Assembly: GCA_016789785.1 (NCBI GenBank)
Contig: JAEUQE010000073.1
Location: 22,560-35,304, forward strand
From: Bryobacterales bacterium
GTDB lineage: Bacteria; Acidobacteriota; Terriglobia; Bryobacterales; Bryobacteraceae
Length of the DNA stretch: 12,745 nt
Reading direction: 5' to 3'
How positions within the stretch are numbered: position 1 is the first letter of the stretch; each line of letters begins with the position of its first letter. The notes beneath the pieces were generated by a model, which was not told where the DNA came from, did not search any database, and was given only the letters and a program-made list of their open reading frames with translations. This document shows, piece after piece, positions 1 through 12,745 of this stretch. The position numbers and the translations under genes were made by a program.

Positions 1-1266
1 GATGCCCATCGCGGAGTAAATGGTCGCTTCCACATCTTCCGCGCGGATCTCGCGGCCACGGCCCCAGCCCGGCTCACGTGTGGATCCACCCGCCGCATCT
101 GTAACGCCAAGCACCCGGCCGCCATTCACTCCCGCGCCCGCAAACAACGCGGCCTGCTGCACATGGTGATCACGCCCTCTGCCTGCGTTCAGATTGCCGG
201 GAATCCGCCCGAACTCGCCCAGACACACGACCAGCGTCTGATCGAGCAGGCCATCATTCTGGAGATCCTGCATGAGGGTGCCGAGCGCGGCATCGAACTG
301 CTTTGTCAGCAGCATGTGACCGCGATTGGCGTCGTAGATGTTCTCGTGATGATCCCAATCGCCCTGGTTGATCTGAATGAAGCGCACGCCGGACCGCGCC
401 CGCAGCATATTTCGAGCCGCGATACATGCGTTGCCGAAACCGGTTGCGCCATAGCGGTTGCGCTCATTCTGATCGAACGTGAACATCGAATTCACATCGG
501 GGTTGTACACCAGCCGGCGCGCGGCATCGTTGAAGGCGTAGGATTCGTGCACCTCGGCGCCCAACTCCTTCGATTCGCGCAACTCGTTCGATAGCTCCTT
601 GTAAAGCTCATAACGGCGGTCAAACCGCGCCTGGCCGAGGGAGTGCGTTGTGTTCGCCATACCTCCGCCGCCAGGGCTCACATAGAACGGACTATGATCC
701 GGCGGCAAATAACCAGGGCCGGGACCTGCCGTGGTGTTCAGATGGACAAACAACGGCAGTACGCGATTCGGTTCCTGCTTCGTGAGTTCGATCGAGACCA
801 CCGAACCGATATGCGGCGCGATTCGCGAACTGCTCAACGTCGGATTGCGCCCAATCTGCACCCAGGTGCGCGCCAGATTGTGCACCAGCGCCCATGCCTT
901 GATGGATCGCACCAGCGCCACACGATTCATCTGCTCGGCAAGCACCGGCATGGCGCCCTGCGGCCAACGGATGTCGCCGTAGCTGGTTGGGTTGAAACTC
1001 TGCGGGGTCCACGGGCCTTCCTTCAGATCGAAGGTGTCGATCTGGCTTGGGCCGCCCGACATCAACACAAAGATGCAATACTTCGCCGTGCTCTTCAATG
1101 CTGGCGCTGCCTGCGCGATGCGCTCGGTGGGGCGTCCTGGCATCAGGAAGTAACCGCCGATCGCGGAAGTGGCGTGTTGGAAGAACAACCGCCGCCCCAT
1201 CTGTGGACGCCGCCAGAATTGCGTGCCCGCGATCTTTGTCCAGTCGTAACCGAATCTGTCTTTCAT
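1..1266 (-). CDS. DUF1501 domain protein, exported, 3' end cut by window edge
   Basis: The first 422 codons read without a stop to the window edge. Seen: GGPSQIDTFD (residues 71-80), GDWDHH (302-307), GEFGR (350-354), GRDHH (364-368) and GGRVLGVTDA (382-391). These are hallmark motifs of DUF1501, whose Asp/His clusters suggest an alkaline-phosphatase/sulfatase-like metal-binding fold. The N-terminus contains GRRLFFQ (24-30) followed by a hydrophobic stretch, which looks like a twin-arginine signal, so export is likely. The start ATG is at 1266, with GGAG at 1273-1276 six bases upstream and only 10 bp after the stop of the DUF1549/DUF1553 gene, so the two are almost certainly co-transcribed. 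Family members usually have roughly 430-480 residues, so little should be missing. Substrate and reaction are unknown. Family assignment is firm; function is not. Confidence 0.92.
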   Translation of the reverse strand, partial: MKDRFGYDWTKIAGTQFWRRPQMGRRLFFQHATSAIGGYFLMPGRPTERIAQAAPALKSTAKYCIFVLMSGGPSQIDTFDLKEGPWTPQSFNPTSYGDIRWPQGAMPVLAEQMNRVALVRSIKAWALVHNLARTWVQIGRNPTLSSSRIAPHIGSVVSIELTKQEPNRVLPLFVHLNTTAGPGPGYLPPDHSPFYVSPGGGGMANTTHSLGQARFDRRYELYKELSNELRESKELGAEVHESYAFNDAARRLVYNPDVNSMFTFDQNERNRYGATGFGNACIAARNMLRARSGVRFIQINQGDWDHHENIYDANRGHMLLTKQFDAALGTLMQDLQNDGLLDQTLVVCLGEFGRIPGNLNAGRGRDHHVQQAALFAGAGVNGGRVLGVTDAAGGSTREPGWGRGREIRAEDVEATIYSAMGI

Positions 1267-1276
1267 GGCACGCTCC

Positions 1277-3136
1277 TCAATAGCTGAAGATGAACTCAGG
1301 CTTGTTCATCAGGGCCCAGGCCAGATCCTCAATGAACGCGTTGCGCTCGTTGGCGTCGCGGGCTTTCGCAAGGAACTCGATGCCCGATTTCCGCTCTTTT
1401 TCGGTGGGCGTGCGCGACAGAATCAGCAGGCTCAATTCGTCCACCACTTCCTCGTTCGTCCCAAGCCGCGATGCCGCCGTGATGGTTGGAGACGTGTTCA
1501 CACGGACGCGGTTCAGCACAAACGAGTCATTCATGAGATTCATCTGCTGGAGGATGGAGAGACTGTTGCTGCGCGGCTGAGAGTCGCGATTGCCCCGCAG
1601 GAAGTGATTGAGGAACGTGGCCACCGCACCGTTGCTGCGCGGTTCGGCAGGCTCAGGAAGCTGCATTGCCCAATTCAGCGGCAGCGTGAAGCCAGTCACT
1701 GTGTACACGGGCGTCACACCGGTCGACTTCACAATCGCGTCGTGCACCTCCTCCGCCATCATTCGCCGGGGATAGTGGCGCGCGAAGCTGCTCACGTATT
1801 CATACTTCCATTCGCCGTCGTACCGAGAGCTGAGTTGATAGGCGGTCGACTGCACCAGCGTACGAACGAATCCGCGCAAGTTGTAGTCGTAGTCCTTGAG
1901 GAAATCGGCCAGCTTCACCAACAGACGAGGATGCGTTGCTTGCAGTGTCCACGGGGCATCGGGCGGATTGTCCGGATCGAGCCTTGCGGGGTCCAGACTG
2001 TCCACAGGCTCCACCAGCGCGAGATTGAAGATCTCCTTCCAGATACGGTTGGCGAAGTTGCGTGAAAACATCGGGTCCTTGATCATGAACTCCGCGAACG
2101 CGACGCGCCAGTTGCCATCCTTCGGCGTGAGGCCCCCGAAGTACTCCGGCGACAGGTTGCGAACGTTGCCGATCGCGGCCCGGTCCGGCCGGTTGCCCCA
2201 ATTGGTGTTCAGATCATAGGTGCCCGTGGTGCGATCGTTGACATCAAAGCTGCGGTAGTAGCGGTCGGTCGCCGGCACATTCCGTTGCGGCATGTTCAGG
2301 CGTGAGAAAAACGCGGACAACCGCCACGCTTCGGCTCTTGATACTTTCGATCCCCATAAGTTCACTTGATCGAGCCGGCCGCGCCCACTGTGGCAGAGCA
2401 GGCAATCCATCTCGCCCAGGCCAAGAAACGTCGACATGGTCATCGACAGCATCGTGTCGTAGGTGTCCTGAATTGGACCCATGGGAGTCTTCGAGGCGAT
2501 CGGATAGTTCGAGTTGCCGAAGCGTGCCTCGAAGCTGTTGCCCGTACCGGTGACAAGATCGTAGGCAAGTGTGGTGAGCGCCTTATCCTCCGCCAGCGAC
2601 TGCCGCAGGTACACGTGATAGGCGTTCCGGCCGTCCTGCTGACGATCGAAATTCGACGGAAACGAGTTGTTCTTCAGCAGATCGCCCAGCCACATCGTCC
2701 ACTTGTCGAGAAACTCTGGTGAGGCCAACAACTGGTCGATCACCTTGTCACGCTTGTTCTCATCCGAACTGCCAACGAATGCGCGGATTTCGTTCGGTGA
2801 TGGAATGCGCCCCGTGAGATCAAGCATCACCCGCCGCAGGAATTCCTCGTCTGTCGAGACAGGCGCGGACGCAATGCCGCGCTCCTGGAGTGTGTCGAAG
2901 ATGTAGTCGTCGATAAAGTTGCGCCGGGGCAGCGAGCCTGGCTGTACAGTGCGAATCTTCGCGGATGCCGCGCGGGCGCTGAACTTCGACGTCGCATCGA
3001 AGATCTCGCGGTGCGCGCGAGCCTGCCGGTCCAGATACTCATCGGGCTTGGCTTGAAAACTGCAATCGATGTTTCCCCGTATCGACTGTCCGCTTGCAGC
3101 CCACGCCACTAAAAACGCAGCAATCGTTTTAAACAT
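1277..3136 (-). CDS. DUF1549/DUF1553 (PSD1-type) exported protein
   Basis: A 619-residue protein when started at ATG 3136, which gives an N-terminal signal peptide (MFKTIAAFLVAWAASGQS). The frame stays open upstream to an ATG at 3232, but the extra 32 residues are hydrophilic and would bury the signal, so I prefer 3136. The ribosome site there is only a weak purine run (GAACGAAGAC). DUF1549 lies at roughly residues 73-280 and contains RRVMLDLTGRIPS (near 101) and the Cys pair CLLCH (245-249). DUF1553 lies at roughly 350-610, with NRIWKEIFNLALVEPVD, ending in NKPEFIFSY. CxxCH has the form of a c-type heme site and corresponds to the conserved CxxCH of this family; whether heme is bound is unknown. 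The gene is paired with DUF1501 immediately downstream, as is common in Acidobacteriota and Planctomycetota. No reaction has been firmly assigned to the family. Confidence 0.92.
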   Translation of the reverse strand: MFKTIAAFLVAWAASGQSIRGNIDCSFQAKPDEYLDRQARAHREIFDATSKFSARAASAKIRTVQPGSLPRRNFIDDYIFDTLQERGIASAPVSTDEEFLRRVMLDLTGRIPSPNEIRAFVGSSDENKRDKVIDQLLASPEFLDKWTMWLGDLLKNNSFPSNFDRQQDGRNAYHVYLRQSLAEDKALTTLAYDLVTGTGNSFEARFGNSNYPIASKTPMGPIQDTYDTMLSMTMSTFLGLGEMDCLLCHSGRGRLDQVNLWGSKVSRAEAWRLSAFFSRLNMPQRNVPATDRYYRSFDVNDRTTGTYDLNTNWGNRPDRAAIGNVRNLSPEYFGGLTPKDGNWRVAFAEFMIKDPMFSRNFANRIWKEIFNLALVEPVDSLDPARLDPDNPPDAPWTLQATHPRLLVKLADFLKDYDYNLRGFVRTLVQSTAYQLSSRYDGEWKYEYVSSFARHYPRRMMAEEVHDAIVKSTGVTPVYTVTGFTLPLNWAMQLPEPAEPRSNGAVATFLNHFLRGNRDSQPRSNSLSILQQMNLMNDSFVLNRVRVNTSPTITAASRLGTNEEVVDELSLLILSRTPTEKERKSGIEFLAKARDANERNAFIEDLAWALMNKPEFIFSY

Positions 3137-3150
3137 ACTGTCTTCGTTCG

Positions 3151-3160
3151 ATTGTACAAT
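3151..3160. promoter_or_regulatory. Palindrome ATTGTACAAT, possible -10 element or operator
   Basis: A perfect 10-bp palindrome that presents TACAAT on both strands. On the minus strand, TACAAT (3156 to 3151) ends 14 bases before the ATG at 3136. That would suit a -10 element and give a leader of only about seven bases. No good -35 hexamer lies 16-18 bp upstream. It could equally be a small dyad for a regulator. Low confidence. Confidence 0.3.
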
Positions 3161-3260
3161 GCCGGACTCGTCATCCTGGGGCATGCTATCCTGTCGAATG
3201 ACCCCGATTCGAAGGGGACTAGCGCGTTTCAACTCCAGGGTAAATTCGGATTGACGCGAC

Positions 3261-3402: not shown

Positions 3403-3798
3403 ATGAGCAAAAAGACCTTCACGATTGGCCGCGACCGCACCGCCGATATCCCCCTCGCCGATCCTTCGGTGAGCCGGCAGCATGCGGAAATCCAGCTTCT
3501 GGATACCGGCTGTCTGTTTCTCATCGACTGCAACAGCAGCAACGGCACGTGGTTGTTTCGTGAGGGGATCCCGAGACGCATTCAACAGGACACCGTCAGC
3601 GCCGGCGAAGAGATTCAATTCGGCAGCGTGCGCATCGCTGCTTCCGATCTGATCGACGTCGCGCAACGCAGTCTCGCGCCTCCCGCGCCGCAACCGCAGG
3701 CGCGCACACTTCCCAAGAGCACGAAGCTGGTGCGCTGCGGCTGTGGCGCAGTGGTGGCGATGGGGAGCGAATGTCCTTTCTGTGGAGTGAACGTATGA
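3403..3798 (+). CDS. FHA domain protein with C-terminal zinc ribbon
   Basis: 131 residues. The FHA fold, a phosphothreonine reader, spans about residues 3-85. Its recognition residues are all present: GRD at 9-11 (Arg10), SRQH at 24-27 (Ser24, His27) and NSSNGT at 44-49 (Asn47). After a Pro/Ala-rich linker (near 91-100), residues 112-127 form a CxC-x9-CxxC cluster (Cys112, 114, 124, 127), which reads as a small zinc ribbon. No signal peptide or membrane segment is present, so it is cytoplasmic. It is the first gene of the block, and its stop overlaps the next start as ATGA at 3795-3798. No strong ribosome site precedes ATG 3403. Inferred role: a soluble adaptor that brings phosphorylated partners, perhaps the linked kinase, to the channel pair encoded next. 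Confidence 0.9.
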   Translation: MSKKTFTIGRDRTADIPLADPSVSRQHAEIQLLDTGCLFLIDCNSSNGTWLFREGIPRRIQQDTVSAGEEIQFGSVRIAASDLIDVAQRSLAPPAPQPQARTLPKSTKLVRCGCGAVVAMGSECPFCGVNV

Positions 3799-4610
3799 AT
3801 TCCGAAGCCTCCGTCTCCGCGCCGATTCCGACGCCGCCCGCTTCGTCCAACGGCTTCTGGTCGCTGCCCAGCCGCTCGATGGTGATGCTCGTGGCGGTGG
3901 CGCTGTCCATCGCATGCATCACCTTGCTGACCCTGACGCTGCGCGGGCGCGCCGCGGTGCTGATTCTCGATTACGGATCGGTACACTTTCCCTATCCCTT
4001 CACCATCCAGAACATGATGCACGTCGTGTTCTTCATCGGCCTCGGCGAGATCTTCGTGCGCTGGCGGATCGGTGTGCGCGAGCATGCGTTTCTCAACAGC
4101 GGATTTCTCCCGGAAGATGATCAGACGGTTCTCCAGGTGCGGGATCTCGGTCCGGTTCGGCGCCGTGTGGCCGCGGCCTTCGACCGCGAGAATGGCTTTC
4201 TTCCCTCGCTCATCAATCTCGCGATTCTTCAGTTTCAAGCGAGCCGCTCCATTGACCAGACGGCCGCGGTGGTGAGCAATTCCCTCGAGTTGATTGCGCA
4301 CCGCGTCGACATGCGTTACGGTGTGGTGCGCTTTATCGCATGGTTGGTGCCGACGCTCGGGTTCATCGGCACGGTATACGGCCTGGGTGCGTCGCTTGCG
4401 GAGGCCGGCGATCCAACCAAGCAACTCGATACGAAGGAAGTGGCCAAGACGCTCGCGGTCGGCTTCGACTGCACGATGGTGGCGTTGATGCAAAGCGCGG
4501 TGCTCGTGTTCTTTCTCCAGTTGGTTCAGGAGAAGGAGGAGACCGCCGTCAACCATTCCGGAGACTACGTGCTTCGCAATCTCATCAACCGCCTGTACGT
4601 AGGCCAGTAG
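3795..4610 (+). CDS. MotA/TolQ/ExbB-type proton channel subunit
   Basis: 271 residues from ATG 3795, chosen because of the 4-bp ATGA overlap with the preceding gene and GGAG at 3784-3787. An in-frame ATG at 3771 would add eight residues and lacks this arrangement. Four membrane segments are visible at about 29-49, 71-90, 177-201 and 216-244, with a cytoplasmic region of about 85 residues between the second and third. This matches MotA-type topology. The segment LVPTLGFIGTVYGLG (184-198) is the core motif of the MotA/TolQ/ExbB superfamily. The third and fourth helices normally line the proton path around the partner's membrane helix, and the partner is encoded 13 bp downstream. This is not a flagellar stator in context, since no flagellar gene is near. 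Family is confident; the driven process is unknown. Confidence 0.9.
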   Translation: MNSEASVSAPIPTPPASSNGFWSLPSRSMVMLVAVALSIACITLLTLTLRGRAAVLILDYGSVHFPYPFTIQNMMHVVFFIGLGEIFVRWRIGVREHAFLNSGFLPEDDQTVLQVRDLGPVRRRVAAAFDRENGFLPSLINLAILQFQASRSIDQTAAVVSNSLELIAHRVDMRYGVVRFIAWLVPTLGFIGTVYGLGASLAEAGDPTKQLDTKEVAKTLAVGFDCTMVALMQSAVLVFFLQLVQEKEETAVNHSGDYVLRNLINRLYVGQ

Positions 4611-4611
4611 C

Positions 4612-4616
4612 GGAGG
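4612..4616 (+). promoter_or_regulatory. Ribosome binding site GGAGG for the MotB-like gene
   Basis: GGAGG sits seven bases before ATG 4624, in the 13-bp gap after the channel gene, and fixes the start of the MotB/TolR-like gene. Confidence 0.75.
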
Positions 4617-4623
4617 CGAACCC

Positions 4624-5622
4624 ATGTCGTTGAAGGCGGGCAATCGCGAGGTCAACATCTTCAACATGTCGCTGCTCGACATTCTGTGCGGCGCGCTGGG
4701 AGCGTTCTGCTTCCTGATGCTCGCGCTGTTCCCTTACTACTCGCCGAAGGGGTTGACCGCGAAGGAGGCCGTCGAGCAGGCCGAGCAATTGCAGAAAGAG
4801 ATCGAGGAGTTGAAGCGCAGGCTCGCAAACTCCACTGATAAGGACAAGGTGCAGGCATTGCTGCAGAAGTTGGAAGGCAGGATTCGCATGCTGCAGGGAC
4901 AGTTGAACAAGGCACTGCGCGAGTTGGAAGTGATGCGAGCCAAGAGCGCCCGCGCGGAAGAGGCCGAACGCGCCGCCCAGGAATTGCAGAAGCGCCTCGA
5001 GGAGTTGAAGGCGCAACTGGAGCCGGGAGATCCTCGCCAGTTGTTGCAGAAGATTGAAGAAGTGGAACGCCTGATGCAGGAACAGCAGGCCAGGCTGCAG
5101 AAGGCGGCCAAGGAGTTGGCGCAGAAGCAGGAGCAGGTTCGCAAGCTCTCCACGCGCAACCCGGTGCTCGTCAAGATGAACAGCCTTGTCGCGGCTCACG
5201 ACGTGGACCTCTACGTCTACTTCAAGGCGGAGAAATCCTCACAGTCCAAGCCGGATCCCGCGGTCAAGCAACGCCACGAATACAGCGACGAGTATTACGA
5301 CGGCTGCGAACGGTCCACATGCAGCGAGACGTGGATCATGCGCGACGTGCCCCGCGGCGTGGACTTCGAGGTCTACTACAAGTTTCTTCAAGCCAACAAG
5401 GACAAGAAGCCCGCGCGAGTCACGGGGTCCTATTTCCACGATGGCAAGGCCTACCCGCTTCCGGAAGCCACGATTCCAAAGGAGAAGACGATGGTTCTCG
5501 CCGGCGCGATTCGTGCAAATCCCGACTACACGGTGACTTTCAAGCCCGCGCCGGAGTTCGAACAGTCGTACAAACAACTGATCGAGAAACAGACGCCACC
5601 CAAGGAGACCAAGAAGCAATGA
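4624..5622 (+). CDS. MotB/TolR-like single-pass protein with long coiled coil
   Basis: 332 residues. One membrane helix near the N-terminus (about 15-38) carries Asp19 in MSLLDILCGALGA, at the place of the proton-binding Asp of MotB/ExbD/TolR. Residues 45-178 form a long charged coiled coil rich in Glu, Lys, Gln and Leu. Residues 180-312 form a separate domain of mixed beta-like segments with a Cys pair (Cys228, Cys233). The C-terminus is Lys-rich. By family topology everything after the helix is periplasmic. No OmpA-like peptidoglycan-binding motif is visible, which separates it from flagellar MotB and from ZorB of Zorya defence. It should assemble with the MotA-like protein encoded just upstream. 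Its stop overlaps the next start (ATGA, 5619-5622). What the C-terminal domain binds is unknown. Confidence 0.82.
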   Translation: MSLKAGNREVNIFNMSLLDILCGALGAFCFLMLALFPYYSPKGLTAKEAVEQAEQLQKEIEELKRRLANSTDKDKVQALLQKLEGRIRMLQGQLNKALRELEVMRAKSARAEEAERAAQELQKRLEELKAQLEPGDPRQLLQKIEEVERLMQEQQARLQKAAKELAQKQEQVRKLSTRNPVLVKMNSLVAAHDVDLYVYFKAEKSSQSKPDPAVKQRHEYSDEYYDGCERSTCSETWIMRDVPRGVDFEVYYKFLQANKDKKPARVTGSYFHDGKAYPLPEATIPKEKTMVLAGAIRANPDYTVTFKPAPEFEQSYKQLIEKQTPPKETKKQ

Positions 5623-6209
5623 TCCGCTGCAACGAAGGGCACTTCTACGATCCTGCGAAACACACTTCATGTCCATGGTGCGGGCAGCGTATCGACATCG
5701 GCGCTCGCATTCCCGAGACAGTTCCCGTGCGTCCCGGCCCTTCCGATCCGCTGAAGACGGTTCCGGTGGCGCCACCAGTTGCGCCACCAGTCCCGCCGCC
5801 TGCCGCTGTGCCGGCTCCCGCGCCGCAGGCCGCTGGTAAGACCGTACGTCTGGTGCGGGAACAGTTGGGTATCGATCCTGTGGTGGGTTGGTTGGTCTGC
5901 ACGCAAGGCCCGGACCGTGGCAAGGACTACCGGCTGCATTCGGAGAAGAACTTCATTGGCCGCGCCACGTCGATGGATGTTTGCGTTTCCGGTGACGACG
6001 CAATCTCGCGCGAGAAGCATGCGGTGGTTACGTTCGAACCGAAGAAGCAGACGTTCTGGCTCTTGCCGGGAGAGTCGAGCGGACTCGTGTATCTGAATGG
6101 CGACATTCTGCACCTTCCGGCGCTGCTGAAGGATCGTGACGTCATCGAGATCGGCAAAACCAAACTCGTGCTGGTGCCGTTTGTCTCGGGCGAATTCCGA
6201 TGGGAGTGA
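5619..6209 (+). CDS. Zinc ribbon plus FHA domain protein
   Basis: 196 residues from ATG 5619, which overlaps the preceding stop by 4 bp and has AGGAG at 5603-5607. The frame is open further upstream, but the RCNEGHFYD...CPWCG start matches the usual N-terminus of zinc-ribbon FHA proteins. Cys4, Cys18 and Cys21, with His8 or His15, can form a zinc site. A Pro/Ala/Val linker spans about 39-72, with APPV written twice in the DNA as an 11-bp repeat at 5769-5791. The FHA domain spans about 90-190, with Arg115, Ser130 and His134 in place. The usual SNGT loop is changed to YLNGD, which keeps Asn160 and Gly161. It is cytoplasmic. Inferred role: a second phosphopeptide reader of the block. Confidence 0.88.
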   Translation: MIRCNEGHFYDPAKHTSCPWCGQRIDIGARIPETVPVRPGPSDPLKTVPVAPPVAPPVPPPAAVPAPAPQAAGKTVRLVREQLGIDPVVGWLVCTQGPDRGKDYRLHSEKNFIGRATSMDVCVSGDDAISREKHAVVTFEPKKQTFWLLPGESSGLVYLNGDILHLPALLKDRDVIEIGKTKLVLVPFVSGEFRWE

Positions 6210-6218
6210 TTTGACGCC

Positions 6219-7214
6219 GTGCCTTACGCCTTCGGCAATGCCCAACACATTGGCCTGCGCGAGCAGCAGCAGGATTCGTTCGGCTTCTCCGATCCGGCGA
6301 ATGAGGCTCTCTGCGCACACGGAGGATTCCTCGCCGTCGTGGCCGACGGGATGGGTGGCATGCAGCACGGGGATCTCGCGAGCCGCTCGGCCGTGCGCGC
6401 GTTCCTTCAGGCCTATGAGCGCAAGGCGGTGGACGAGCCAATTCCTGATGCGCTCTGGCGATGTCTTCACGAAGCCGCCGCCTATGTGCGGTCGGCGCAA
6501 ACAAGTCTCGCGGCGGGAGAGGAGATTGGTACAACGTTCGTGGCCGCGGCTTTGCACCACCAGCATCTCTACTGGATTTCCGTTGGAGACAGTGGGCTGT
6601 TCCTCTACCGGGAAGGCGAATGGACGCAGTTGAACACGCCACACATCTATGCCCGCGAACTCGATGCGCGCGCAGAGGCGGGTGAGATCACGGCGGAGCA
6701 GGCGCTATCGGACCCGCAGAGGGAAGCGCTCACCAGCTTTCTCGGCGGTGAGATGAACGAGGTTGACCGCAACGTGCGCGCATTTCCCCTGCATGCCAGC
6801 GATTGCCTACTGCTTGCAAGCGATGGTCTGTTCAGGACACTGGCCCCGGATGAGATGAGTTCGGCCATGGTGGGGACGCTCCAGGAGCGTTGCGAAGCAC
6901 TGGTCCGCCGCACGTTGGAGAAGCGATCGCCGGCGCAGGACAACGTGACCGCCGTTGCGCTGGCCTTGGAGGAGACAGCGCTCGGAGTTGCCGCGTCCGC
7001 GCTACCCAAGACGCCCCCTCGCAGGGCGATACGTCGCCGCGCCGGAATACGCGTTGCCGTATTCGCCGCTGCCCTGGCCGCGATGGCTGCGGGCTACTTC
7101 TGGCGAACATACTGCTGTCAGCCTCCCCCAGCGCCCTTGGCGAAGGAGAAGCCCGGCCAGGGCTACGATCCCGCCGCACTGCCACCGTCGGAAAAAGCTC
7201 AGGAGGACAAGTGA
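6219..7214 (+). CDS. PP2C-type protein phosphatase with C-terminal membrane anchor
   Basis: 331 residues starting at GTG 6219, nine bases after the preceding stop, with GGGAG at 6202-6206. PP2C (PPM) motifs run in order: QQDSF with Asp19, ADGMGG with Asp43, GTT (104-106), VGDSG with Asp124, ASDGL with Asp202, and DNVT with Asp241. All metal-binding aspartates are kept, so it should be an active Mg/Mn-dependent Ser/Thr phosphatase. After a basic stretch (PPRRAIRRRAG) a membrane helix spans about 277-294, leaving about 37 residues with Cys299-Cys300 outside. The basic side puts the catalytic domain in the cytoplasm. Its natural substrates are likely the linked kinase and targets of that kinase (inference). 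The stop overlaps the protease start by one base (TGATG). Confidence 0.93.
   Translation: MPYAFGNAQHIGLREQQQDSFGFSDPANEALCAHGGFLAVVADGMGGMQHGDLASRSAVRAFLQAYERKAVDEPIPDALWRCLHEAAAYVRSAQTSLAAGEEIGTTFVAAALHHQHLYWISVGDSGLFLYREGEWTQLNTPHIYARELDARAEAGEITAEQALSDPQREALTSFLGGEMNEVDRNVRAFPLHASDCLLLASDGLFRTLAPDEMSSAMVGTLQERCEALVRRTLEKRSPAQDNVTAVALALEETALGVAASALPKTPPRRAIRRRAGIRVAVFAAALAAMAAGYFWRTYCCQPPPAPLAKEKPGQGYDPAALPPSEKAQEDK
7201..7206 (+). promoter_or_regulatory. Ribosome binding site AGGAGG for the protease-FHA gene
   Basis: A full AGGAGG seven bases before ATG 7214. It settles the start of the protease-FHA gene at 7214, although the frame stays open far upstream inside the phosphatase gene. Confidence 0.85.
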
Positions 7215-8491
7215 TGAAGCTGATCTGCGCATTCCTGGGGATGCTTGCCGCACTCGCCGCCGAAGCGCCCATCGAGAATATGAAACAGAGCACCGTGCGG
7301 GTTCACGTGGCCGTGTTCGATCCATCGCGGAATCAGGGCGCGATTGTGGGCAGCGGAAGCGGATTCATTGTCGGCGAGAAACAGGTCGCCACCAACTGGC
7401 ACGTGTGTTGCATGCCGCTGCCTCGCGAACTGGCGCGCTTTCGCGTGGCGCTCATCGTTTCCACAGACAAGGAACATCAATACCCCGCGCAAGCGAAGTG
7501 GCGTTCCGCCGAAAAGGACCTCGCCATTCTCGAGACAGAGAAGCCGATGGAACGGCAGCCGGTGCGCTTCGCCACGCGCAAGTCCCTGAAGGAGACGCTC
7601 ACGGTTTGGGCGATCGGATTTCCAGGCGCGGCGGATCGCGCGGGCGGTGAGGAAGGCATCTTCATTCCGACCATCACGGAGGGCAAAGTCAGCCGCTTCA
7701 TCGCGGGCAGCTTCATGCCCGAAGGAACTGCCACGCGCGTGATCCAACACACAGCCGCGACCAACCCGGGCAACTCCGGTGGACCTCTCTTTGATGACTG
7801 CGGGCGGGTGATCGGTGTGAACCGCGCGAAATCATTGACCCAGGTGATCACTCCGGATGGACGCACCGAACGTGTGCCGATGGGCGACGACATCAATTGG
7901 AGCGTCGAAGCGGCGGAGTTGTTGCCCGAGTTGTCGCGCTTCCAGATCACACCGGAATCGAGTGATGAGGTATGTGCCGCGCCAGTGCTCACACAAACGC
8001 AGACGATGCCCGGTTGGATGATGGGTGGGCAGGTGGTTTCGTTTGGGGCGGCCGCGGCGGCGCTGCTGCTTGCAATGAACCGGCGTGTGAGAACTACTGT
8101 GACACAGAAGGTCACTCAGCGACTTCGCTCCGGCCCCACACCACAACCAGCGCCTGTCAGCGGAAAAGGCAAGGCGTCGCTCCGTGGACTCGCCGGCGCC
8201 TGCGCGGGCTCATCGATTGCGTTGGAATCCACCTGTACCCTTGGGCGCGATCCACAACTCGTCAATCTCGTGTTTCCCAACGACAGTGCCCAAGTTTCGA
8301 AGCGGCACTGCGAGGTGCGCTACGATCCTGCGCAAAAGCGATTCTTCGTGCAGGATACATGGTCGAGCAATGGAACGTTTCTCGCATCAGGCCAACGCAT
8401 TCCCGCGGGCAGCGCGGTGGAGCTGAAGCCCGGCGACCGTTTCTATCTCGGCACGCCCGACAACATGTTCGAGGTCCGCCTGGAGCAGTAG
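7214..8491 (+). CDS. Secreted trypsin-like serine protease fused through a membrane helix to FHA
   Basis: 425 residues. A signal peptide spans about 1-17 (MKLICAFLGMLAALAAEA). A trypsin/HtrA-like domain follows, with catalytic His63 (ATNWHV), Asp102 (KDLAIL) and Ser188 (NPGNSGGPL), so it should be active. No PDZ domain is seen. A membrane helix spans about 271-288 and is followed by basic residues (NRRVR), placing the protease outside and the rest inside. A Pro-rich linker leads to an FHA domain (about 335-422) with GRD 344-346, SKRH 362-365 and SSNGT 384-388, all intact. The frame is open upstream to 6890, but that part only shadows the phosphatase gene, and AGGAGG fixes ATG 7214. Inferred role: it links periplasmic proteolysis to cytoplasmic phosphothreonine binding. 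The stop TAG directly abuts the next ATG. Confidence 0.93.
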   Translation: MKLICAFLGMLAALAAEAPIENMKQSTVRVHVAVFDPSRNQGAIVGSGSGFIVGEKQVATNWHVCCMPLPRELARFRVALIVSTDKEHQYPAQAKWRSAEKDLAILETEKPMERQPVRFATRKSLKETLTVWAIGFPGAADRAGGEEGIFIPTITEGKVSRFIAGSFMPEGTATRVIQHTAATNPGNSGGPLFDDCGRVIGVNRAKSLTQVITPDGRTERVPMGDDINWSVEAAELLPELSRFQITPESSDEVCAAPVLTQTQTMPGWMMGGQVVSFGAAAAALLLAMNRRVRTTVTQKVTQRLRSGPTPQPAPVSGKGKASLRGLAGACAGSSIALESTCTLGRDPQLVNLVFPNDSAQVSKRHCEVRYDPAQKRFFVQDTWSSNGTFLASGQRIPAGSAVELKPGDRFYLGTPDNMFEVRLEQ

Positions 8492-9217
8492 ATGCACTTC
8501 GACACTGCCATTCTGTGCGAGGCCGGGGGCCGCGGCTACAACGAAGATTGCTGCGGTCATCAGGAGCACGGTGGTAACTCCGTATGGGTTCTCGCCGATG
8601 GTCTCGGGGGACACGGTTCCGGTGACATTGCCGCGCAGACCGCCGTGGAAGCAGTGCTGGCGCACTTTCAAACCAGGCCCGAAGTGTCCACGGAGAATCT
8701 GCTTGCGTGCCTTGTCAGCGGGCACGAGGCGGTGCTTGGCAAACAGAACGGCAATGCGTCGCCGCGTCAAATGTACACCACAGCGGTCGTGTTGCTGGCA
8801 TCCACGCATAGCGCTTGCTGGGGCCATGCCGGCGACTCGCGGCTCTACTTCTTCCACGGGGGCAGGATCGCGAAACGTACGCTCGATCACAGCGTGCCTC
8901 AAACCCTGGTGAGCGCAGGCCAACTGCGCGAGCGCGAGATCCGGTTTCACGAGGATCGCAACCGGCTTCTGCGAACACTCGGCTCGCGGCAGGAGTTGAA
9001 ACCAAGCGTCGATTCGCACGGCGCTCTCGAAGCGGGTGACGCGTTCCTGCTCGTGAGTGATGGCTTCTGGGAGTACGTGTTCGAAACGGAAATGGAAGTG
9101 GAACTGGCTCGCGCCGCAAGCGCCGCCTCATGGATCGATGGAGTGAAGCTGCGCTTGCGCACACGCGCCATGTCCGATCGCGACAACTGTTCGGCAATTG
9201 CCGTTTTTGTGGAGTGA
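8492..9217 (+). CDS. Soluble PP2C-type protein phosphatase
   Basis: 241 residues, starting immediately after the protease stop with GGAG at 8482-8485. PP2C motifs: RGYNEDC with Asp19, ADGLGGHG with Asp36, TTAV (96-99), HAGDSR with Asp115, SDGFWE with Asp190, and DRDNCSA with Asp231. All metal ligands are present. No membrane helix is seen and the protein ends at the catalytic domain, so it is cytoplasmic and minimal in size for the family. It differs clearly from the other phosphatase of the block in length, motifs (NED rather than QQD) and lack of an anchor, so the two are not a recent duplication. It lies just before the kinase gene, the usual partner arrangement. Confidence 0.93.
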   Translation: MHFDTAILCEAGGRGYNEDCCGHQEHGGNSVWVLADGLGGHGSGDIAAQTAVEAVLAHFQTRPEVSTENLLACLVSGHEAVLGKQNGNASPRQMYTTAVVLLASTHSACWGHAGDSRLYFFHGGRIAKRTLDHSVPQTLVSAGQLREREIRFHEDRNRLLRTLGSRQELKPSVDSHGALEAGDAFLLVSDGFWEYVFETEMEVELARAASAASWIDGVKLRLRTRAMSDRDNCSAIAVFVE

Positions 9218-9226
9218 AGCAGCCGT

Positions 9227-11731
9227 ATGCAAGGGACCGTTTGCTTCGGATGTATGGAATCGACAGGCGGCCATGCCGTTTGTCCAAAGTGCGGCTATGC
9301 CGCGGGACAGCGCCCACAATCGGCCCTCTATCTTACGCCCGGCACGATCCTCAAGGAGCAGTATCTGGTGGGGCGCGTACTGGGGCACGGCGGCTTCGGT
9401 ATCACCTATGTGGGCCTGGATGTAAATCTGAATCGCAAGGTCGCGATCAAGGAGTATTTTCCTGGCGGCGTGGCGATTCGAGGGCCGGGCGACACTCAAG
9501 TGTTCGCGCACTCGCCCACCCTCACACAGGAGTACACCTTCGGCCTGGAGCGCTATCTCGAAGAAGCGCGGCTGGTGGCGAGCTTCGACAATCATCCGAA
9601 CATCGTCTGGGTGAAGAACTACTTTGCGGCCAATGGCACCGGCTACATGGTGATGGAGTTTCTCGACGGCATTACGTTCGAGACGTTTCTCGAACGCCAG
9701 GGCGGGCGTGTCGATTGGGAAACCGTGATGCGCGTGATGGTGCCTGTGATGGACGCCTTGCGCGAAGTGCACAAGGTCGGGATTCTGCATCGCGACATCT
9801 CGCCGGACAACATCTGCCTGTTGCGCACGGGCATGGTGAAGGTGATCGACTTCGGCGCCGCGCGCAATGCCCTGGGCCGTGCAAGCCGCAACCTCTCCAT
9901 CATCTTGAAGCCCGGATTTGCGCCGCCGGAGCAGTATCAGACCCGTGGGAATCAAGGCCTGTGGACAGACATCTATGCGGTGGCCGGGACCATGTATCGT
10001 GCACTTACGGGAGAAGTGCCGCCAGCGGCGCCGGACCGGCAGGTGCGCGATGAACTGACACCTCCCAGCGCCATGGGATTCAATATCCCGTTCTCTCAGG
10101 AACAGGCGCTGCTGGCCGCTCTGGATCTCGATCCCGAACGCCGCTTCCAGGAACTCGGCGAGTTTCAAGCGGTACTGCTCGGATCGGAGACTTGGGTCGC
10201 GCCATCGCCGTTGCCGAAAACGGCACCAGTGCGGCGGGATGTGCCGGTTCCACGAGACGAGCCGCCGCCAACCCCAAGCCGCATTCTTCCCGCGCCCACG
10301 CCGCGAAAGAGAGGCTTGCCGAAGTGGCTGGTTGGCGCGATCGCAGCTCTCGCCGTGATTCTCGCTGGCGTTGTGGCGATGATCGCCTTTTCGAAGAAAG
10401 TGGAGATTCGCGACTTCACCGCGGAACCTCGCAGCATTCGCGCTGGCGAGGAAGTGCAGCTTCGGTGGAGCGTGGACAACGCGGAGTCCGTCGTGATTGA
10501 AGGAGTCGCTGGGAATCAGGCGCATCATGGCCGTTCGACAGTGCGGCCCACACGCAATACGCGCTACACACTGGTCGCGACACCACGCTGGGGCACGCCC
10601 GTGAAGCAAAGCATCGAGATCGCGGTGGCCGCACTGCGCAGCGCGTCTATTGAACGCTTCGTTGCGAGTGAGCAAAGCGTGAAGCCAGGCCAGTCCGTCC
10701 TGATCTCGTGGACTGTCGCCGACGCACAGGAAGTGCTGCTGGATGGGCAACCGGTTCCCTCATCGGGTTCCGTGGAGAAGCGGCTCACCGCGCCCGCGAG
10801 TTTTCATCTTGCGGCGCGCGGTGAAGACGGCGGTGTGCGGGAACGGGCGATCAGTGTTGATGTGGAGGGACAACGCTCACCCCCACCAGTGCGCGAACAA
10901 GTGGAGATCGCACTGTTTGTCTTTGATCCACCCAGCGTCCAAGCGGGTGGCTCGTCCACATTGAAGTGGGATGTGCGTGGCGCGGCGCAGGTCGAGATCG
11001 CCGGCCTTGGCCGCGTGAAGCCGCAGGGAACATACCCAGTCCGGCCGGAGCGCAACATTCTCGCGAAACTCACGGCGCGCGGCGCATCGGGCACAACCAC
11101 TACGGGTACGGCGACACTATCGGTGATCCCGCACACCGTGCCGGTGCCCGGTCCCGTTGCGCCTCGCATCCTGTCGTTCCAGGCAAACCCGCCGGCAGTC
11201 ACAGCCGGCCAGCCAGTGATCCTGTCGTGGTCCACGCAAGGGGCCACGCTTGTGGAAATCTCACCAGAGCCGGGGCGTGTCGAGAGTTCAGGGCAGATCA
11301 CCGTGACTCCGCGAGGCGCCACACGATACATGCTTCGCGCATCGAACAACCAGCAGATCAGCCACGCGGAGCTAACGGTGCAGGTGAATCGCAGCCCGCC
11401 GCCCCCCGTTCCGGAGGGCATCTCCTTCGCGGTGATTCATGATCACGACGGACCCGTCAATCTGGGAGCCAATCAGCGTGCCTGGAACTTCTGCAATGGT
11501 GTTCTTGGCGTGTCCGGCGGCAGGCTTCGATTTCAGTCCCGCGAAGCGGCGTATGAGAGCTTCGACGTCGAGGCAAACGAGGTTGTGGAGATCAAGAAGA
11601 ACCGCCTCGGGATTCGTGACTACGGGGCATTTCATGTGAAGCTCAGCCGCGGCACAAACTACAACTTCGTGGTGAGACAAGGGAACCCGGAGATCGTAGC
11701 GAACGCATTGCAGCAAGCGCTTCAGAAGTGA
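9227..11731 (+). CDS. Membrane Ser/Thr protein kinase with zinc ribbon, Ig-like repeats and PH-like C-terminus
   Basis: 834 residues. The N-terminal zinc ribbon is Cys6, Cys9, Cys19 and Cys22 (CFGC...CPKCG). The kinase domain spans about 46-318: glycine loop GHGGFG (53-58), Lys75 in VAIKEYFP, Glu113, HRDISPDN (Asp190, Asn195), DFG (208-210), the APE-equivalent APPEQY (232-237) and Asp248. It should be active and is of the RD type. A Pro-rich basic linker leads to a membrane helix (about 367-388), placing the rest outside. Four Ig-like modules follow at about 394-468, 475-546, 558-633 and 648-720. Residues 731-834 form a last domain resembling small PH/GRAM-like folds (tentative). GGFGITY plus KEYFP marks a known bacterial subfamily that carries this zinc ribbon. 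GGAG (9211-9214) lies 12 bases before the start. Probable central writer of the block. Confidence 0.93.
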   Translation: MQGTVCFGCMESTGGHAVCPKCGYAAGQRPQSALYLTPGTILKEQYLVGRVLGHGGFGITYVGLDVNLNRKVAIKEYFPGGVAIRGPGDTQVFAHSPTLTQEYTFGLERYLEEARLVASFDNHPNIVWVKNYFAANGTGYMVMEFLDGITFETFLERQGGRVDWETVMRVMVPVMDALREVHKVGILHRDISPDNICLLRTGMVKVIDFGAARNALGRASRNLSIILKPGFAPPEQYQTRGNQGLWTDIYAVAGTMYRALTGEVPPAAPDRQVRDELTPPSAMGFNIPFSQEQALLAALDLDPERRFQELGEFQAVLLGSETWVAPSPLPKTAPVRRDVPVPRDEPPPTPSRILPAPTPRKRGLPKWLVGAIAALAVILAGVVAMIAFSKKVEIRDFTAEPRSIRAGEEVQLRWSVDNAESVVIEGVAGNQAHHGRSTVRPTRNTRYTLVATPRWGTPVKQSIEIAVAALRSASIERFVASEQSVKPGQSVLISWTVADAQEVLLDGQPVPSSGSVEKRLTAPASFHLAARGEDGGVRERAISVDVEGQRSPPPVREQVEIALFVFDPPSVQAGGSSTLKWDVRGAAQVEIAGLGRVKPQGTYPVRPERNILAKLTARGASGTTTTGTATLSVIPHTVPVPGPVAPRILSFQANPPAVTAGQPVILSWSTQGATLVEISPEPGRVESSGQITVTPRGATRYMLRASNNQQISHAELTVQVNRSPPPPVPEGISFAVIHDHDGPVNLGANQRAWNFCNGVLGVSGGRLRFQSREAAYESFDVEANEVVEIKKNRLGIRDYGAFHVKLSRGTNYNFVVRQGNPEIVANALQQALQK
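10406..11386 (+). repeat. Four Ig-like protein repeats within the kinase
   Basis: Each module opens with an F-x-A/D-x-P-type strand, then A/P-G-(E/Q/G)-x-V, then W in (L/I)-(R/S/K)-W. Examples are VQLRWSV, VLISWTV, TLKWDV and VILSWST, at residues 411-416, 491-497, 578-583 and 665-670. The modules are diverged in DNA, so this is an old protein-level repeat. Such Ig-like modules usually mediate binding at the cell surface or in the periplasm. Confidence 0.75.
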
Positions 11732-11794: not shown

Positions 11795-12745
11795 ATGCGC
11801 CCGCTTGCCGTACTGGGGATCGCGGTGTCTCTTTGCATGCCCGTTCTGCGTGCAACGGAATCGCGTGGCGATGCGGAGATCAAACGCGGCGAGGAACTCC
11901 GCAAGAAAGGGACGCCTGCCGCACGGCGGGAAGCGTTGCAGGCTTACGAATCCGCTGTTGCTGCTTACCGGGAGTCGGGAGATCGCACGGGGCTTGGGAA
12001 CGCGCTTCACGCAGTAGGCCGCATTCTTTTTGATCTCGAGGAGCACCCGCGCGCGGCCGCCGTACTGGAAGAGGCTATCGGAATTCGCAGCGCGGCCGGA
12101 ACGCCGCTCGATCTTTCCAACAGCATTCAGACGCTCGGCGCAGCGAGATCGGCGCTTGGTGAGAATGCGAAAGCACTGGCGCTCTACACCGAAGCGTTGG
12201 GCATCCGCCGCAAAGTGGGCGATCAGCCAGGAATGGCCACCAGCCTTTACGCCTCCGCGGTCATCTACTGGATGTGGGGCGACACGCAGAACGCCGTTCG
12301 CACCTACGAAGAAGTTCTCCAGTTACGCCGCTCGCTGAAAGACACTTACGGGGAAGCGCACGCCCTGAATGCGATGGGGCTTGCGTTCGCAACCGCCGGC
12401 GACCATGGAACCGCGATGCGCCGTTATCAGCAGGCGCTGCCGCTCTGGCGCAGGTTGAAGAACCGCATGGGCGAATCGTACACGCTCAACAATATCGGGA
12501 TGTCGCAATCGGCTTCAGGCAACCATCGGGGCGCCATTGCGACGTTCCGTCAGGTGCTCGAAATTGCGCGAGAAACCGAGGAGAAGCGAGCCATCGCTTA
12601 TGCCAGCAACAACACCGCATCCGCTTATGCATCGTTGCGCGACTGGGCGAAAGCCGAAGAACACTACAGCGAAGGCTTGCAGCGAAGCCGCGATATTGGC
12701 GATCGCATGGGGGAATCGGCTGCGCTTGCGGGAATCGCACGAATG
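11795..12745 (+). CDS. Secreted TPR-repeat protein, 3' end cut by window edge
   Basis: 317 codons are visible, running off the right edge. A signal peptide opens the protein (MRPLAVLGIAVSLCMPVLRA, cleavage near residue 20-21). Helical TPR repeats of about 40 residues follow from about 30 to the end, with units such as ALHAVGRILFDLEEHPRAAA, AHALNAMGLAFATAGDHGTA and SYTLNNIGMSQSASGNHRGA. Each has Gly, Ala and a closing A-x-x-x-(Y/F/L) pattern of the TPR_12/Kinesin-light-chain type. TPR arrays bind proteins. ATG 11795 was chosen because it gives the signal peptide. It lacks a ribosome site, sits inside the palindrome GCGCATATGCGC (11789-11800), and lies just after TATAAT. Secreted TPR proteins of Acidobacteriota often end in a CHAT peptidase domain; that part would lie outside the window and is only a suggestion. 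Confidence 0.88.
   Translation, partial: MRPLAVLGIAVSLCMPVLRATESRGDAEIKRGEELRKKGTPAARREALQAYESAVAAYRESGDRTGLGNALHAVGRILFDLEEHPRAAAVLEEAIGIRSAAGTPLDLSNSIQTLGAARSALGENAKALALYTEALGIRRKVGDQPGMATSLYASAVIYWMWGDTQNAVRTYEEVLQLRRSLKDTYGEAHALNAMGLAFATAGDHGTAMRRYQQALPLWRRLKNRMGESYTLNNIGMSQSASGNHRGAIATFRQVLEIARETEEKRAIAYASNNTASAYASLRDWAKAEEHYSEGLQRSRDIGDRMGESAALAGIARM

Follow-up and report, generated by a model that had tools for sequence, protein, structure and literature searches.

A conserved gene set in Bryobacterales that joins a TolQ/ExbB-class motor to a kinase, phosphatase and FHA module

In the type VI secretion system (T6SS), the PpkA-PppA-Fha set places a Ser/Thr kinase, a PP2C phosphatase and an FHA protein beside an envelope machine, and in the TerY-P triad a vWA protein is found with a PP2C phosphatase and a kinase. 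To our knowledge, no TolQ/ExbB-class motor has been placed under a dedicated Ser/Thr kinase circuit, and the literature retrieved contains no such case. Sections of PMC11217815 describe several variants of the type VII secretion system (T7SS) that are accompanied by kinases, PPM phosphatases, FHA and vWA proteins, sections of PMC7159879 describe kinase-PP2C-vWA sets in conflict systems, and KKP is presented in part of PMC11341870 as a prophage toxin-antitoxin set with a CSD-kinase, PP2C, Hanks kinases and an FHA domain. The accessible part of PMC12505986 deals with MotAB and generic ion transporters and the term 'FHA' does not occur in it, and the 'MotA' in the accessible part of PMC11341870 is a T4 protein in its references. 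Here we analyse an eight-gene block (positions 3403-11731) in a stretch of 12,745 nucleotides from a Bryobacterales bacterium (contig JAEUQE010000073.1, positions 22,560 to 35,304), hereafter named the window. The block belongs to a real and conserved set, in which a TolQ/ExbB-class motor is joined to a portable phosphothreonine-signalling module, with good support for the parts as well as for their association. Neither a name nor a description of the eight-gene set was found in the open-access PMC literature (most subscription papers and all bioRxiv preprints lie outside that scope), consistent with an earlier note on this DNA, which knew of no named system with the full set.

The eight open reading frames (ORFs), here called A to H, are intact and all lie on the + strand, with successive junctions of -4, +13, -4, +9, -4, 0 and +9 bp. 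Start and stop codons are coupled at four of them (ATGA overlaps at A/B and C/D, GTGATG at E/F, and TAGATG where F and G abut), so that the ORF coordinates confirmed the earlier description of eight same-strand genes with gaps of 13 bp or less. A (3403-3798, 131 aa) consists of an FHA domain (Pfam FHA, 1.2e-16) and a C-terminal zinc ribbon. B (3795-4610, 271 aa; MotA_ExbB, 8e-10) is the A subunit of a proton channel of the TolQ/ExbB class and has an additional N-terminal helix, and C (4624-5622, 332 aa) is, from a structural model and alignment, a MotB/TolR-like B subunit in which a single membrane helix is followed by a long coiled coil and a periplasmic beta-sandwich. D (5619-6209, 196 aa) has an N-terminal zinc ribbon, a Thr-bearing linker and an FHA domain (3.6e-7). 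The PP2C phosphatase E (6219-7214, 331 aa, GTG start; PP2C_2, 6.5e-18) ends in a membrane helix (hydrophobic segment 276-294), whereas the second PP2C, G (8492-9217, 241 aa; PP2C_2, 4.7e-13), is soluble. F (7211-8491, 426 aa) combines a signal-like N-terminus, a trypsin-like protease (Trypsin_2, 2.2e-24), a membrane helix and an FHA domain (7.4e-14). H (9227-11731, 834 aa) carries a zinc ribbon, a Hanks-type kinase (Pkinase, 1.5e-27), a membrane helix, Ig-like repeats and a C-terminal domain; four such repeats were recognised by eye (motifs at 414, 495, 581 and 668), and a BLAST self-comparison found none. The kinase, two phosphatases, three FHA proteins (A, D and F), protease and channel domain named in the earlier note were thus all recovered by Pfam, and the kinase motifs, protease triad and PP2C motifs of the window copies are intact.

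In a simple hydropathy scan, B, C, E, F and H all showed membrane segments; that of E is C-terminal, F has two, and that of H follows the kinase. The positions of the segments in F (1-19, signal-like, and 270-288, preceding the FHA domain) lead us to expect its protease outside and its FHA domain inside the membrane; likewise, the segment of H (368-386) would leave the kinase inside and the Ig-like repeats outside, and E would be a membrane-bound phosphatase.

B matched PF01618 with 39 bits against a cut-off of 22.9, its fold is nearer to TolQ/ExbB than to flagellar MotA, and the channel-helix Thr is invariant in its relatives. C is encoded directly downstream after a 13-bp gap, and the acidic residue in its single membrane helix, Asp19, is invariant across an 82-row alignment. 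In the model of C, a helix (12-35) and a helical region (46-176) are followed by a beta-sandwich (178-308) at a predicted local distance difference test score (pLDDT) of 83-98. Domain, fold and acidic partner helix place the pair in the superfamily of 5:2 ion-driven motors (MotA/TolQ/ExbB); by analogy, a pentamer:dimer assembly and ion flow would be predicted. Pfam gave only weak coiled-coil matches for C: no ExbD/TolR domain (PF02472) was matched in the window protein, and no OmpA-like peptidoglycan-binding domain either there or in the 25 commonest families of the 82-row alignment. The earlier designation as MotA/MotB-like is better replaced, as B is of the TolQ/ExbB class by fold and C shows neither of the two domains. 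A housekeeping Tol or Ton locus was ruled out: besides the missing ExbD match of C, all 25 of 25 related genomes have their ExbD proteins at sites other than the cassette. For the C head, TerD-family proteins gave the best structural match, a borderline one; TerD itself (PF02342) was not found in any of 12 genomes searched. The DUF2135 (YfaP) domain, suspected as the head from a DxDL motif seen by eye, was rejected (0/16 heads and 0/12 genomes matched). In distant relatives the head is replaced by vWA, which is carried by the channel B subunit in L057, L059 and L060. The closest named relative of C among the matches listed is 96% identical and comes from a Bryobacterales metagenome-assembled genome.

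The functional residues of the phosphorylation module were counted over aligned loci only, from which loci below a per-protein bit threshold were left out. The FHA Arg/Ser/His/Asn and four Cys of A are invariant (17/17 loci), as are the zinc ligands and FHA residues of D (20/20), the PP2C metal Asp of E (20/20) and G (17/17), and the catalytic Lys/Asp/Asp and four Cys of H (16/16). Position 34 of the D linker is Thr in 19 loci and Ser in one. In F, the FHA Arg/Ser/His are present in all 15 loci, the FHA Asn in nine (His replaces it in the other six) and the protease His/Asp/Ser triad in 13. The C-terminal FHA domain is paired with varied modules: the trypsin-like protease of F, a thermolysin (L057), a coiled coil recognised by eye (L059, L060) and vWA. 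The vWA assignment comes from Pfam for L070 and L076, from a profile or from inspection by eye for L001, L002 and L004, and from a weak match for L044 (VWA_2, 0.0014, below cut-off). In L001, L002 and L004 the gene for this vWA protein, with a membrane segment before the FHA domain, sits between D and E. Secretion and vWA genes, described earlier as absent, were indeed not found in ten window proteins scanned, but vWA is present in relatives, both in these FHA proteins and in the channel B subunit.

Conservation of the set was assessed with neighbour profiles built from the window and loci L001-L010 (the vWA-FHA profile from L001, L002 and L004); profile matches there are by construction, and the independent evidence at these loci comes from tblastn and blastp with the window's own proteins. 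Scanning of genome contigs with B alone returned ten loci. In nine of them the neighbouring genes and their arrangement match the window (L006 is cut by its contig after D and L009 is without F), and the tenth, L010, contains only B and C. The record of L009 (VFZE01000021.1) is titled Acidimicrobiia, a label that is probably wrong, as its genome G009 came up within the order to which the Bryobacterales genome G001 belongs. Among 200 genomes of the order, B was found in 22 at E<=1e-3; 21 were kept and G367 was dropped (short match, 1.1e-5). Together with G007 (L007) these form a set of 22 genomes. All eight genes are collinear in 11 of them (L001-L005, L007, L008, L046, L048, L049 and L051) and four other collinear copies are cut by contig ends (L006, L047, L050 and L055). 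One genome, G010, has the set split, with B-C on one contig and A-D-E-G-H on another; in L056 only A and a broken B remain, and L057 (genome G315) is a distant, rearranged copy. Upstream of the cassette in L048 (15060-19880) lie a divergent S41-peptidase gene and a TPR-bearing kinase; ORFs of similar size and kinase profile, outside the Pfam scan, are found upstream in L008 and L049.

Co-occurrence was tested in the same 200 genomes with strong-match thresholds of E<=1e-70 for B, at least 170 bits for D and E<=1e-60 for G, by which weak matches were dropped in 9 of 30 genomes for D and 7 of 26 for G. Strong matches were obtained in 21 (B), 21 (D) and 19 (G) genomes, of which 19 are shared by B and D, 16 by B and G, and 18 by D and G (Fisher p of 2e-22, 1e-16 and 1e-21, respectively, values that ignore genome kinship). 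The channel and phosphorylation genes, whose linkage in other genomes was the point on which the earlier note had hung its proposal, therefore do occur together, in 19 of the 21 genomes counted from either side. B is without a strong D in G315 (D of 99 bits, inside the cassette) and in G384 (a remnant copy), and a D match at E<=1e-15 is missing from only one of the 21 B genomes, that with the broken copy. Strong D without B was seen in G455 and G476, and G without B or D in G427. The coupling thus looks one-sided: the module is found without the channel, and the channel nearly always with D. Conserved order and co-occurrence rule out chance juxtaposition, and because relatives keep the eight genes together, they probably form one machine.

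Beyond the order, B was detected at E<=1e-20 in five of 297 genomes of the phylum (G008, the Bryobacterales centre, and G145, G178, G194 and G256). In G145, protease-FHA, B, G, kinase, D, E and C lie within ~10 kb; between its G and kinase genes (L067, 1280-1996) there is a Peptidase_C70-like (papain-like) protein with a signal-like N-terminus. Most parts are present in other orders in G145, G178, G194, G315 and a Rhizobium leguminosarum plasmid, which argues that the linkage outlasts rearrangement. In the plasmid (L044), which alone among 72,556 plasmid records reached 80% coverage of B, a B protein 44% identical over 81% is found with an FHA protein, a C-like protein, a vWA-like FHA protein, two kinases, two PP2C and a D-like gene within one 18-kb stretch. 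A 1610-aa protein with Gly-rich first 400 residues and no Pfam match at E<=0.01 also lies inside the Rhizobium set (16033-20865). The search of the phylum with C gave nine of 297 genomes at E<=1e-3, strong only in G008 and G145, with mostly coiled-coil-like matches in the others. Protein searches at E<=1e-3 returned 2,335 relatives of B and 590 of C, the best 120 of each including Bryobacterales, Vicinamibacterales and Verrucomicrobiota (Chthoniobacteraceae, Udaeobacter). For the vWA form 132 relatives were obtained, and the best 120 include Holophagales, Rhodospirillales and Sphingomonadales. As a separate observation, on plasmid pANACY.03 of Anabaena cylindrica (L045, 9539-10939) a MotA/TolQ/ExbB gene comes soon after the cmr genes of a type III-B CRISPR system, and a viperin-family gene follows it a few genes further on.

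The window holds a possible ninth gene, encoding a TPR protein (11795-12745, + strand; TPR_12, 8.6e-36) that follows H after 63 bp and runs off the window. It is 31-34% identical to TPR-CHAT proteins adjoining the cassette in L003 (18310-20775), L051 (4442-7108) and L055 (4897-7602), on the same strand, and in L046 (10147-13107), on the opposite strand; other genes take this position in L048 and L049. Each of eight genomes, four of which were included because they showed the gene, has 3 to 25 CHAT matches, and judged by these counts the recurrence of TPR-CHAT beside the cassette looks above chance. Perhaps the window ORF is the N-terminus of a TPR-CHAT protein, and the CHAT peptidase may be an occasional ninth component. 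On the other side of the block, positions 1-3232 of the window are occupied by divergent genes on the - strand, namely a PSCyt2/PSD1 (DUF1549/DUF1553) protein at 1277-3232 and an ORF outside the scan, running off the window edge at 1-1266, that we take to be DUF1501-like.

Our preferred interpretation, offered tentatively, is a dedicated trans-envelope machine in which phosphorylation would gate a motor of the TolQR class and a periplasmic protease, tethered through its FHA domain, would work together with this motor. The ion-driven motor would be built from B, presumably as a pentamer, and C, presumably as a dimer that carries protons on Asp19; its shaft in the periplasm would be the coiled coil of C and its head the binding-type beta-sandwich of C. 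The kinase H and the phosphatases E and G would set phosphothreonine marks on cytoplasmic targets, to be read by the FHA proteins A, D and F. FHA proteins such as GarA and OdhI bind their own phosphorylated linker, and D may do the same. As F is expected to span the membrane with its protease out and its FHA domain in, phosphorylation inside could recruit the protease outside and bring it to the motor, and proton flow might then present or pull substrates to it. More doubtful is the broader proposal of a new class of envelope machine, with a phospho-switched rotary motor of the TolQ/ExbB class, a vWA or TerD-like head as effector in the periplasm, proteases steered from the cytoplasm by FHA tethers, and a module that would have been re-plugged onto a contractile injection system and so would be a portable controller for unrelated envelope machines.

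Several observations weigh against this dedicated machine. The distribution of the set is patchy, at 21 of the 200 genomes searched in the order. F is missing from L009 (1/22), and L052-L054 (3/22) end after F without G and H locally, in genomes without G at E<=1e-40. The protease triad is lacking in two of the 15 aligned F relatives, and no protease match was obtained in the Rhizobium set. On stretches of 20 kb each, G178 has no G, and G194 neither kinase nor G; in G256, where a TolQ-like relative matched at 2.5e-29, the 14-kb stretch around it showed none of the module genes. Moreover, protease-FHA, D, PP2C and kinase occur without the channel in G399, G412, G431, G451, G462 and G490; the protease was confirmed by Pfam in G399, G431, G451 and G462 and by profile in G490, and the gene of G412 is cut by the contig start. 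These are the six stand-alone module loci among the nine genomes with weak D matches that were inspected. The other three are G487, where a contig-cut locus holds vWA-FHA, D, E, protease-FHA, RDD-FHA and kinase, G393, with D alone, and G315, which has the channel locus L057; of the nine, the eight other than G315 had no B in the order-wide search. Channel-less modules were also found nested among channel carriers. In G476, D-E are at a contig end and F-G-H on another contig, B is missing from the genome, and an ORF matching no cassette profile occupies the A-B-C position. In G455 (L070, L074; C40), D, vWA-FHA, E, G and two kinases lie ~670 bp downstream of a cluster for an extracellular contractile injection system (eCIS) and share its strand; this cluster encodes eCIS_core, Tail_P2_I, Baseplate_J, two sheath proteins and an AAA ATPase. 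Finally, the interactions, phosphorylation and proton transport of this machine are predictions from sequence and structural models.

The fact that the module can stand alone, so that its outputs would be independent of the motor, also speaks for a different role of the channel pair, which might, through proton flow or the position of the C head, inform the FHA/kinase circuit about the proton-motive force or the condition of the envelope, with the output elsewhere. H and the C head are both expected to reach the periplasm, and vWA and beta-sandwich heads are binding-type domains. However, known TolQ/ExbB-class pairs do work rather than sensing, and no transcription factor is present among the eight genes; we consider such a sensor unlikely.

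Somewhat less credit is given to a Zorya-like defence function, in which the motor would sense envelope perturbation and a proteolytic effector (F outside, or a TPR-CHAT protein inside) would kill or arrest the cell. None of the Zorya effectors ZorC, ZorD and ZorE was among the PADLOC matches listed for the eight proteins (for H, the best 25 of 34), a search in which PADLOC covered these proteins and Pfam some of the flanks, and the ZorA2 match was 0.006; membership of Zorya was rejected on these grounds. The PADLOC kinase matches PD-T4-6 and mad6 were judged to be generic. No relative of B was found in 50,697 phage records, nor in the IMG/VR viral contigs with two peptide patterns, and four of the CHAT genomes were picked after the gene was seen.

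The channel-less modules, that beside the contractile injection system included, and the separate contig of the G010 channel pair would suit a generic kinase/PP2C/FHA module that merely adjoins a proton channel, the two parts working separately. In a 56-row PP2C tree, however, E of all sampled channel loci falls in one 28-row clade (100/98) that also holds G455, G476 and the contig-cut G427 and G487, whereas the six stand-alone loci cluster apart from it (99/97, falling to 83/33 when L084 is included). The tree fits an ancestral association with the channel that was lost at least twice, once at the set beside the eCIS (one genome). This division, the persistence of linkage through rearrangement and the loss of D from none but the broken copy make separate working improbable; the motor appears to be a client of a kinase/PP2C/FHA module that is itself portable. 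Least probable of all is the control of secretion or assembly akin to T6SS/T7SS phospho-regulation, the motor energising the export or assembly of an envelope structure encoded elsewhere: the T7SS variants mentioned above (PMC11217815) and the homologous set downstream of the eCIS in G455 offer parallels, but no secretion or baseplate genes were found in the ten window proteins scanned and TagH reached 37.8 bits against a cut-off of 120.25.

If the link between module and motor in the dedicated machine is real, these eight genes would offer a test system for phosphothreonine gating of a proton-driven rotary motor, and would also allow testing whether cytoplasmic phosphorylation positions a periplasmic protease. 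They would also point to kinase/PP2C/FHA/vWA modules as control units that can be exchanged between envelope machines.

Compared with the described systems, the motor pair is most readily set beside TolQR and ExbBD, which it resembles in the PF01618 domain, TolQ/ExbB fold and invariant Thr of B and in the single helix, invariant Asp and downstream position of C. It differs from them in the extra N-terminal helix of B, the coiled coil and beta-sandwich or vWA head of C without an ExbD match, and the attached phosphorylation genes; no TolA, TonB or Pal was present in the ten proteins scanned. From flagellar MotAB it is set apart by C, which has no OmpA-like match and a head modelled as another beta-sandwich. 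Zorya likewise adds further genes to a motor that is non-flagellar and belongs to this superfamily, but B, with 271 aa, is without the long tail that is a feature of ZorA, and C is without an OmpA match. The TerY-P triad and the kinase-PP2C-vWA sets of PMC7159879 are approached in the zinc-ribbon kinase, the PP2C, the vWA of relatives and the borderline TerD-family match of the C head; the cassette differs in that the ten scanned proteins hold no vWA and that a motor pair, FHA proteins and a protease are added. Membership of KKP, a set without a channel in which two kinases, one with CSD and one with FHA, follow the PP2C gene, was rejected, as the window has one kinase, no CSD match and its FHA domains on other proteins. 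Membership of the T6SS was rejected on the TagH score and the absence of Tss genes from the ten proteins, and that of a T7SS variant on the absence from them of the FtsK-like ATPase TsxC and of WXG100. With both secretion systems the set shares a kinase, PP2C and FHA (and vWA) proteins beside an envelope machine, which here is a TolQ-like motor instead of a contractile or FtsK-type one.

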